Assembly: GCA_030141605.1 (NCBI GenBank)
Contig: JAQGDQ010000313.1
Coordinates: 126,001 to 190,000, forward strand
Reading direction: 5' to 3'
DNA: 64,000 nt
Origin: Tubiluchus corallicola
Taxonomy: Eukaryota; Priapulida; Priapulimorpha; Priapulimorphida; Tubiluchidae
Both the position numbers and the translations under genes were made by a program. Below are positions 7,157 to 15,394 of this stretch, piece by piece. Position 1 is the stretch's first letter. Each line of letters opens with the position of its first letter. A model generated the notes under the pieces. That model was not told the origin of the DNA. It saw nothing but the letters and a program-made list of their open reading frames with translations, and did not search any database.

Positions 7157-7636
7157 TTACTGTATGTCTAACCACTGTGTGCTAGTACTGTATGACTCTA
7201 AGTTTGTGTACTCTCCCGTTTTATTTTCATACGTTTTTGCTTTACCATTTTTATGTATGTGTATCTCCGTGTAAGTAAAAGGCACGCTGATGTACGCCCT
7301 GTTGACCACCGTCTTCATACGTATGCTCTTTTTTGGGCCAACTACTGCTTTCTGTACTTCTTCTACCGTTTTAGTAATCTCTTCTGAAGATCCGTCCACT
7401 AGGTTCTTTGTGTCAAGCTTCTGCAATATGACATTGATTCCAGCAGCATCCAACTTAGGAACGTGTCTGACTTTCAGAAAAATCTTAGCTTGATTCTGCT
7501 TCTGTACCGCAGTTTTCCAATAACCAGATTCCTTTTTCTCGTAAGTGTATGTTCTATGAAACTCTTGAGGTTGATCCAAGCCATTGTGCAGATCTGCCGT
7601 TAAAGCAATCAGTGCATCATGATGTCTGACCCTTTT
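7157..7636 (-). CDS. Exon 6: aerolysin-like (ETX/MTX2-type) C-terminal module
   Basis: 159 codons to the stop, beginning after a TTTTTGCAG acceptor in phase 0. The order of elements fits the aerolysin fold: a long Thr/Tyr/Lys strand (RTYTYEKKESGYWKTAV), a second long strand, an amphipathic stretch that could be the membrane hairpin (KLDAAGINVILQKL), a Thr/Glu/Val-rich return strand, and the family-typical end. That end is a proline-less 'P-x-K-S-v-r-x-k-t-V' turn leading to AYISVPFTYTEI and then a lysine/glycine hairpin followed by GEYTNLESY. The whole module sits in one exon. No protease-activation site or secretion signal is evident. The assignment rests on pattern only. Confidence 0.5.
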   Translation of the reverse strand, partial: KRVRHHDALIALTADLHNGLDQPQEFHRTYTYEKKESGYWKTAVQKQNQAKIFLKVRHVPKLDAAGINVILQKLDTKNLVDGSSEEITKTVEEVQKAVVGPKKSIRMKTVVNRAYISVPFTYTEIHIHKNGKAKTYENKTGEYTNLESYSTSTQWLDIQ

Positions 7637-13600: not shown

Positions 13601-15394
13601 TTTTGTACACCAAGAAATCTTCTAAGTCTAGTCGAATTTAAGAAATTCAAGTGTTGGTCCTGGTACAAGATGGGGCATATCGACAAAATATTATCCATCG
13701 AAAAATTCCAACAAATCCAATGGTGGGCAAGGTTATGGTTCTTCTGGTGGTGGTAAACAGCAGCAAAAATCCAAATCACAAGGGGTAGCCACACCGACAT
13801 GGAGAGTAAATGGGACTTATGAGCGTAATAAATTTTCTGTTGCTAAGTTTGACTTTTTTCCTTTTGCCGGTGAGGCCAAAATATCTGTATTTTCAGGCCG
13901 CTTATTAAAATGTGCCTTAGGGCCAGCAGAGCCTTAATCAAGCACTGCTTTGATGTGTAAATTTTTAAGCTGTATCAATGATATTGAATTTTTTTATGGT
14001 TATTGAAACTGCACAAAAAACTGAATTATTTATTTTCCTTTTGCGTCATTTATGCTACATCGCAGTTGCCTGGTCGCCATGCCAACCTATTAACAGTTGA
14101 CCCTGCAGCAGTCAAATTCATATTATGACAAAGACACCATCACATGACAAATTGCCACCTGTTTTGGCAGCTACTGTTTACATCCTCATCAAAAGAACAC
14201 CAAACTCAACGATATGTTGATGTTACTGGGAATTCTCAACACGCGTACAAAAGCTGACCTTATCACAGACTTAGTTTTATCATTAGCGAAAGTATGCCAG
14301 TAACATACAACAATGGACCTCAGGCACTTAAAGCAATCTCCCAAAATTTGGCAGTTTTAATTAATAATAATTATTTGCTTTTTAGTCAAGCCCAGATATA
14401 CTGCATAACCAAATAACTTACACTATCGAAATAAAAATAATATACTTACTGAACCGTGGTTTTGTTTGAACAATCTTGCTAGGTCATGTGCACCTTCTAA
14501 ATCAGCTGTTTTAATAGGGTAAATCCTCTGAATAGCCAAATCTTTGAATACCTCACTGGTGCTCAGTGTGTGAAGTTTAAACAAGGGCTTCCATGTGTTC
14601 TCCAAGTTCCACATTTTCGGATCTTTTGCATAACTCGAAAGAACATCTTTTAAAAGCCTCGGTCGAATCTTTCCTGTTAAATCCATCTCGTGTGGAAGTG
14701 TACCACTGTGATCTTTTGCTCTTAGACTGGCACCTGCTCTGATAAGGGCAAGAACTATACCGAGCTTGCCAGCACTGAAGGCATGGTGCAGAGGCGTAGT
14801 TTGGTTGATGTCCCGCACGTCAACCTCCGCGTGTGCTTTCAACAAGCAATCGACTGCTAACTCATGACCATGCATTGATGTAATGTGCAAAGCACGCACC
14901 CCATAATGATCAGATGCATCAATAGCCGCCCCTGTTCTCAGCAGCAACTTGATTAAGGGTACGTTACCAGAAATTGAAGCATAATGCAAAGCAGTTTGAC
15001 CTTTCGAATCCACAGCGTTCACCTCCGCACCTGCCAGCAACAAATACTCAGAAGTGGCAAGAGAGTTGCTAGAACAACACAAGTGTAGAGCGGTCTGGCA
15101 ATAGGAATTCACAGCGTTGACATCAGCTTCTGCGTTAATCAGTAAATCGACAATATTGACGTGACCCTTTAAGGACGCCAATAATAAAGGAGTAGCCATG
15201 TCAACATCGCGAGTATTAACGTTTGCATTATTTTCAACGAGTAATTCAACTGTCTGTTCATGTCCTTTTTCAGCCGCCAGATGAAGGGCAGTTTTCCCCA
15301 TCTGATTGTGGATATTTAAGTTAAAATGTGCTTTGATAAGCAAACTTAGTTGTTCAACATCATTTGTTTCAGCAGCTTCGAATAACTTTGACAT
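7157..15394 (-). CDS. Ankyrin-repeat / beta-trefoil / aerolysin-like fusion protein, six exons
   Basis: Model: 15394-14450, 12375-12266, 11304-11064, 10740-10561, 10147-9689, 7636-7157. Every junction is GT/AG, and the phases agree (0, 2, 0, 0, 0), giving 2,415 nt, 804 residues plus stop. The order is ankyrin repeats (about 1-240), a non-ANK linker of unknown fold (about 240-490), a fascin-like beta-trefoil (about 499-630) and an aerolysin-like beta-rich module (about 650-804). There is no signal peptide, so the start predicts a cytosolic protein. The start is the ATG at 15394, because the frame above it meets a stop and a CTTTCAG acceptor at about 15466 in the 5' UTR. Direct splicing of exon 1 to exon 2 is inferred from matching phase, and extra exons in that 2.1-kb intron cannot be excluded. 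An alternative is two adjacent genes (ankyrin; trefoil-aerolysin-like). Function is unknown. Pore-forming or membrane-damage roles are known for aerolysin-fold relatives but are only inference here. Confidence 0.55.
8100..8710. repeat. Inverted pair of ~16-bp minisatellite arrays (foldback-like element)
   Basis: At about 8105-8240 a unit close to TTTTTCGCCAGTCTGC is repeated around eight times. At about 8505-8697 the reverse complement (ACTGGCGAAAAGATAG-like) is repeated around twelve times. The two arrays flank about 265 bases of ordinary sequence. The arrangement, with long terminal inverted repeats built from short tandem units, is that of foldback (FB)-type transposons. It lies in the intron before exon 6 of the ankyrin fusion gene. 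The reading frames across the right arm are repeat translations. Confidence 0.7.
9689..10147 (-). CDS. Exon 5: fascin-like beta-trefoil domain
   Basis: 153 codons, phase 0 at both ends, acceptor TTTTTTTAG and donor AAG|GTATGA. Three internal repeats of about 40 residues each end in a serine/proline-x-L-F-x-V motif (QSLFDV, SSLFSV, SCLFFV). Each contains a G-x-F/Y-L strand, clearest in TSDGLFLTVD and LPDGTFLGCIDGRLLA. This pattern (F-x-V, then a dG-x-y-L-x-a-d-x-x-G-x-l turn) is that of fascin/FGF-type beta-trefoils, which act as actin- or sugar-binding modules. Several aerolysin-fold proteins carry a lectin-type trefoil before the pore-forming part, so the position fits. Ligand unknown. Confidence 0.55.
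10561..12375 (-). CDS. Exons 2-4: linker region of unknown fold
   Basis: Exons 12375-12266 (110 nt), 11304-11064 (241 nt) and 10740-10561 (180 nt). Acceptors are AATTTCAG, CTTTGTAG and GTTCAACAG. Donors are GTACGT, GTAAAC and GTAAGG. The split codon AC|G across the first junction keeps the frame. The encoded segment has a strikingly acidic loop, EDNYDGVGDVRDDD, that could bind calcium, and several N-x-S/T sequons (NSS, NQT twice). Alternating hydrophobic residues suggest beta strands. I do not recognise the family. Of the three exons, the first is the least certain because it sits next to a long ATT repeat. Confidence 0.5.
11640..11757. repeat. GTT/GGT-rich imperfect trinucleotide repeat
   Basis: A degenerate array of TTG, GTT and GGT triplets, directly visible, ending beside the hairpin element at 11735-11995. 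Confidence 0.7.
11735..11995. mobile_element. Hairpin (MITE-like) element with ~100-bp inverted repeats
   Basis: The left arm from 11765 (GTAATGCCTTTTATAGCCTC) is matched in inverse at 11964. Pairing continues inwards through AAGATTATAATATTTATT, GGAGCTTTC and CAGCTGAATAGAAA with few mismatches. Weaker pairing extends outward to about 11735 and 11995 (TTAGCAGAGTAAAA versus TTAACAGAGAAAAA). The loop is only some 30 bases, and there is no coding content. It lies inside the intron between exons 2 and 3 of the ankyrin fusion gene. The superfamily is not determined, as I cannot identify a clean target-site duplication. Confidence 0.7.
12009..12165. repeat. (ATT)n microsatellite, about 157 bases
   Basis: An almost pure ATT tract starting directly after the hairpin element, and 100 bases from the exon at 12266-12375. 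It produces spurious poly-Tyr and poly-Asn reading frames on the two strands. Confidence 0.95.
13009..13910 (+). pseudogene. Decayed LTR-retrotransposon gag
   Basis: The plus-strand peptide begins MSDPSTSHDG near 13009. It shows FEHWLSLQTT, then (after a stop) a segment with YERYVFRSREQEPNESIDNF and, after further stops, VGLKSNDFRRKLL. These match the capsid region of Ty3/gypsy gag proteins (the Y-x-R-Y-x-F-x-x-R ... E-S-I-D-x-F ... I-V-x-G-L-x-S-x-x-x-R-x-x-L-L pattern). A damaged zinc knuckle follows (CWSWYKMGHIDK). There are at least four in-frame stops and no protease or polymerase behind it. It sits antisense in the intron after the ankyrin exon. Confidence 0.7.
14450..15394 (-). CDS. 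Exon 1: ankyrin-repeat array
   Basis: 315 codons from ATG, starting MSKLFEAAETNDVEQL, a typical N-terminal ankyrin cap. About six further repeats follow, with the canonical T-A/P-L-H/L turn at each (KTALHLAAEKGH, ATPLLLASLKGH, QTALHLCCSS, QTALHYASISGN, VRALHITSMHGH, TTPLHHAFSAGK) and N/D-V-N-like ends. After the repeats comes a non-ANK tail with LPHEMDLTGKIRPRLL and LARLFKQNHGS. The exon ends in phase 0 at a consensus GTAAGTAT donor (14449). Ankyrin arrays bind other proteins. The partner is unknown. One uninterrupted exon for the whole array is notable beside the short exons that follow. Confidence 0.85.

Follow-up and report, generated by a model that had tools for sequence, protein, structure and literature searches.

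Szczesny et al. 2011 (PMC3110756) described fusions in which the partner of an aerolysin domain is a lectin, crystallin, DM9, immunoglobulin-like or other module, and ankyrin is not among the fusion partners in the parts of that survey considered here. In the natterin family, GV and AGIP motifs flanked by Ser/Thr-rich sequence recur in all four founder natterins and are said to make up the insertion loop; the founders and the zebrafish natterin-like protein Dln1 also have a PP motif in common (PMC8402412). PDB entry 5di0, which has the same sequence as 4zno, is Dln1 (PMC8402412). A few fish natterin-like sequences bear CARD or Death domains (PMC8402412). The sequence-only reading that preceded this analysis had held that aerolysin-fold proteins are usually secreted. 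This agrees with the biomphalysins, all of which have a predicted signal peptide (PMC8047071), and the toad complex βγ-CAT is termed secretory (PMC10206775), but it does not extend to the mytilectins, the majority of which are without a signal peptide (PMC10744619), or to the plant amaranthin proteins, nearly all of which are without one (PMC5554364). Given these leaderless mytilectins and amaranthin-aerolysins and the CARD and Death fusions of natterin-like sequences, a leaderless member of the family is not odd by itself.

The locus described here lies on the minus strand, from 15394 to 7157 of the window (the whole 64,000-nucleotide stretch of Tubiluchus corallicola DNA that was analysed). 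Its six exons, proposed beforehand to join in consistent phase, do so, giving a single frame of 804 residues with a stop codon at its end. Introns 1 to 5 are all GT-AG, with phases 0, 2, 0, 0 and 0 in order.

14450..15394, minus strand: exon 1, residues 1-315; start codon, ankyrin repeats and linker; donor GTAAGT
12266..12375, minus strand: exon 2, residues 316-352; a 110-bp bridging exon with an ambiguous coding signal
11064..11304, minus strand: exon 3, residues 352-432; no family assignment
10561..10740, minus strand: exon 4, residues 433-492; phase 0-0, no family assignment
9689..10147, minus strand: exon 5, residues 493-645; a single phase 0-0 exon, proposed beta-trefoil
7157..7636, minus strand: exon 6, residues 646-804 and the stop; candidate aerolysin/natterin-type module, judged by its C-terminal part

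A codon-usage score was trained on 721 codons (the 315 of exon 1, seven Pfam-matched deiminase pieces and one MyTH4 piece). Exons 3, 4, 5 and 6 score 0.09, 0.02, 0.04 and 0.03 in the annotated frame, in each case the highest of the frames, with the best competing frames at −0.20, −0.06, −0.22 and −0.39 (stops penalised). Four of 69 background open runs of at least 55 codons also reached 0.02, so these exon scores are fair evidence of coding and not decisive. This is a real gene region, and the combination of known parts that it shows is unusual but unproven.

Several other features of the window were recorded. A protein-arginine deiminase gene occupies 20495-25869 on the minus strand, with PAD or PAD_M in seven of the ten pieces tested (one below cut-off), and its last exon has a PAD type 1 match (E 1.3e-28). 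Most invertebrates are reported to lack such a gene, and Priapulus, Saccoglossus and Branchiostoma were the earliest-diverging invertebrates with a deiminase gene as then known (PMC8826395). Pieces of a MyTH4-containing gene lie at about 47600-55900 on the minus strand (MyTH4 at 53932-54225, E 3.4e-06); RA_2 and IRS matches fall below their cut-offs, and by eye the gene looks like an unconventional myosin. Taken with the spliced gene structures, the deiminase and MyTH4 genes indicate an animal source. An open frame at 2600-3031 on the minus strand is claudin-like by eye and has no Pfam match at E 0.01. Within the introns of the six-exon gene, a 16-base unit (like TTTTCGCCAGTCTACT) is repeated in arrays at 8091-8710, in intron 5; the arrays on the two sides have opposite orientations and form inverted repeats of up to 104 nt at 75%. 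Intron 2 contains an inverted repeat at 11741-11988 (111-nt arms, 87% complementary, 26 nt apart) that looks by eye like a small mobile element and adjoins a long AAT/ATT microsatellite. Open frames on the opposite, plus strand of intron 1 (13006-13937) appear by eye to be retroelement remnants; the piece at 13632-13937 on that strand has no Pfam match.

Exon 1 encodes an ankyrin repeat domain (Pfam Ank_2, E 5.1e-38; Ank, E 1.5e-36 with 6 stretches), as had been read from the letters; about seven repeats can be counted by eye. The absence of a secretion signal, also part of that reading, holds for the annotated start, where residues 1-30 are without a strong hydrophobic core (best 9-residue hydrophobicity mean 1.4), and for intron 1, a scan of which gave no leader-like first exon. 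It is left less certain by the region upstream, where a scan to 20480 in one acceptor phase only gave two hydrophobic candidate leader exons, at 16844 and 19174. A leader is likely, but not certain, to be absent from the protein.

The C-terminal part of the protein was compared with known aerolysin-family structures. The top match of exon 6 among 177,635 PDB sequences is 4zno, the zebrafish natterin-like protein Dln1, at E 0.23; when a single query runs from the end of exon 1 to that of exon 6, the aerolysin match has an E of 1.2. In the aligned piece 23 of 58 residues are identical, and the match stops 14 residues short of the C terminus here and 15 short of it in the Dln1 chain.

7208..7396, minus strand: stretch of exon 6 aligned to Dln1 (exon 6 residues 81-143 against 4zno residues 263-318)

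Exon 6 and the Dln1 piece align with a Smith-Waterman score of 83, which none of 20,000 shuffles reached (maximum 56). The corresponding Gumbel p of about 4e-8, or about 0.008 when multiplied by the number of PDB sequences, is optimistic because the Dln1 piece had been chosen for being the best match, and the PDB-wide E of 0.23 is the stricter figure. Against the same piece, exons 1 to 5 taken singly score 18 to 27, and exons 2-5 jointly 32. With a piece of 5zu4, a second natterin-like chain, exon 6 has a score of 40, a value reached by 92 of 20,000 shuffles and only a small margin above the scores of exons 1 and 5 (31 and 29). A profile search that included the Dln1 piece is not independent evidence, since that piece alone already retrieves 5zu4; no aerolysin match of this profile covers any of the exon's first half, and in exon 6 the first 79 residues of the exon gave no aerolysin match against the PDB. 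No aerolysin-type Pfam family was matched at E up to 10, in a search whose HMMER filters may conceal weak matches; outside exon 1 the only Pfam matches fall below the cut-offs (Big_14, E 0.084; PHAT, 0.21; EHD_N, 0.34). A single-sequence structure model of exon 6 alone had a mean pLDDT of 33.6, too low for use. The comparison with Dln1 supports a sequence resemblance of exon 6, in its C-terminal part, to natterin-type aerolysin modules; the C-terminal aerolysin-type module proposed at the outset is retained for that part and not for the unmatched first half of the exon.

The beta-trefoil that had been placed before this module fared less well. Exon 5 matches no beta-trefoil or lectin family in Pfam, and its PDB matches are a plant carboxylesterase 101 (E 0.13) and an epimerase (0.31), with no trefoil among them. 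The score of exon 5 in a test for threefold repetition, made on its thirds, was reached by 41 of 150 shuffles, and a three-lobe profile search returned a cyanovirin-N protein as its sole match (E 0.53), again no trefoil. The single-sequence model of exon 5 alone is too low for use (mean pLDDT 35.6). Exons 3 to 6 matched no NCBIfam families, and exons 5 and 6 no PHROGs families. A beta-trefoil in exon 5 is a plausible but unconfirmed pattern. The same result bears on the idea that the protein is a leaderless defence lectin of the mytilectin kind, exported along a non-canonical pathway, with the ankyrin repeats incidental or serving in sorting. Most mytilectins are leaderless, many combine a trefoil with a pore-forming domain, and non-canonical export is presumed for them (PMC10744619), all of which would suit this idea. 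Exon 5 is, however, without a lectin match in Pfam, the comparison being with Pfam only and containing no mytilectin profile. Large ankyrin arrays are, moreover, typical of cytosolic proteins, and the array here is large. We consider an exported lectin distinctly unlikely.

The segment that would correspond to the natterin insertion loop was located from the order of motifs.

7412..7516, minus strand: presumed insertion-loop site, exon 6 residues 41-75, placed by eye from motif order

The natterin motifs AGIP, GV and VPP are absent from the protein, and PFT is present. RHVP stands at exon 6 residues 57-60, where AGIP is expected by order, 43 residues before GPKK. In the loop as placed by eye, 1 of 35 residues is Ser or Thr, compared with 111 of 804 in the full protein. 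Hydrophobic alternation in exon 6 is not above chance: its maximum was reached by 235 of 500 shuffles and its share of windows by 125 of 500. The missing AGIP, the near lack of Ser/Thr and the chance-level alternation together speak, with moderate weight, against pore formation of the classical kind. To judge from these residues, the canonical insertion loop seems to have been lost, and classical pore formation may be lost with it; the earlier suggestion of a membrane-damaging protein finds no support in the loop. The same observations weigh against a functional pore former that is held inactive in the cytosol by the ankyrin array and, once released by a signal, attacks inner membranes as an effector. 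Such an effector would account for the similarity of exon 6 to the aerolysin family and for the ankyrin array, and it has parallels in the few natterin-like sequences of fish that are fusions with CARD or Death domains (PMC8402412); LIN-24 is also counted in its favour. With the loop and the alternation as they are, we regard it as rather unlikely.

Whether the ankyrin exon is joined to the remainder depends on a short segment. Exon 1 spliced directly to exon 3 is out of frame, with 9 stops in the resulting frame, and the fusion therefore hangs on the 110 bases of exon 2. The codon score of exon 2 is −0.15 in frame and also −0.15 in one antisense frame, and its link is the weak point of the ankyrin-aerolysin fusion. 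If exon 1 is left unspliced it continues for 9 residues to a stop at 14423, downstream of which are the poly(A)-like signals ATTAAA at 14361 and AATAAA at 14034. A possible alternative start lies before exon 3.

11304..11315, minus strand: in-frame ATG directly 5' of exon 3, where a separate gene might start (reading MLCR, then LWITF)

The region could on these grounds comprise two adjacent genes, one encoding ankyrin repeats only (exon 1 to the stop at 14423) and the other a leaderless beta-domain/aerolysin protein from about 11315. The ambiguous coding signal of exon 2, the early stop with its poly(A)-like signals and the ATG at 11315, in frame with exon 3, all fit two genes, but exon 1 ends in the donor GTAAGT, the acceptor of exon 2 is pyrimidine-rich by eye, and every intron phase fits across the six exons. 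Two genes are on balance unlikely.

Relatives with the same architecture were sought. No homologues were found in a set of 5.8 billion proteins, in which 7994 (E ≤ 0.001), 1439 (E ≤ 10) and 167 (E ≤ 10) candidates were scored, and the 24 pattern matches of exon 6 in a scan of viral contigs included none that tblastn confirmed. The order ankyrin plus aerolysin appears in no title or abstract opening found; some papers contain both 'aerolysin-like' and 'ankyrin', so the combination may be mentioned in their full text.

The reading we prefer, to which we assign a probability of about 0.4, is that one spliced gene encodes a leaderless, ankyrin-tethered aerolysin-fold protein that acts as a sensor or scaffold rather than as a classical pore former. 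The sequence-only reading had placed ankyrin, trefoil and aerolysin in one frame; the ankyrin array and the aerolysin-family C terminus remain, and the trefoil is only a plausible pattern. The predicted protein would begin with the ankyrin array, followed by a middle region some 180 residues long, a probably all-beta domain of roughly 150 residues and, last, the natterin-type aerolysin module. Because no leader was seen, we infer that the protein probably stays in the cytosol; cucumber amaranthin-aerolysin proteins are found in the cytoplasm and/or nucleus (PMC5554364). The ankyrin array would anchor it to an intracellular partner, and the beta domain and aerolysin module would together form a part for recognition and assembly, which may bind membranes or glycans that become accessible within the cell, such as those of damaged vesicles. 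With the insertion loop apparently lost, a sensor or scaffold built on an aerolysin fold is likelier than a classical pore former. The further proposal that such intracellular aerolysin-fold proteins of animals form a class of their own, in which an ankyrin array takes the place of the leader, the hairpin is remodelled and the protein is an inner-membrane sensor or scaffold steered by ankyrin and no secreted toxin, is doubtful.

If one transcript spans the six exons, the gene would be a case of an animal aerolysin-fold module fused to a cytosolic protein-binding array. It would then be relevant to the ways in which pore-forming folds are tamed or re-used by hosts. With its altered loop, it would also be a testable example of an aerolysin-fold protein that has ceased to pierce membranes.

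Among known proteins, Dln1/Aep-1 of zebrafish (4zno, 5di0) is similar in its C-terminal aerolysin part, over the 58 aligned residues given above. Dln1 itself bears a jacalin-like module. Alpha-latrotoxin is likewise a pore-forming protein with an ankyrin array, but its ankyrin repeats are on the C-terminal side and its pore-forming part is unrelated. The founder natterins differ in having the GV and AGIP motifs and the Ser/Thr-rich loop that are absent here, and the word ankyrin is used 0 times in the natterin review (PMC8402412). The chimera-type mytilectins are similar in layout, with a module of about 140 residues (159 here) coming after a domain of about 150, and mytilectins are mostly without a signal peptide (PMC10744619), as is likely here. 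Chimera-type mytilectins, in which an R-type trefoil precedes a pore-forming domain, and SaroL-1 combine a beta-trefoil with an aerolysin-like module, whereas exon 5 here is without a recognisable Pfam trefoil profile; the SaroL-1 paper uses the word ankyrin 0 times. The plant amaranthin-aerolysins resemble the protein in being nearly all leaderless, they carry lectin domains before the aerolysin domain (PMC5554364), and amaranthin lectin domains have the beta-trefoil fold (PMC3110756). They differ in usually having two amaranthin domains and in being plant proteins, and their description uses the word ankyrin 0 times (PMC5554364). Set beside these systems, the locus is best read as new in its combination, its parts themselves being known.
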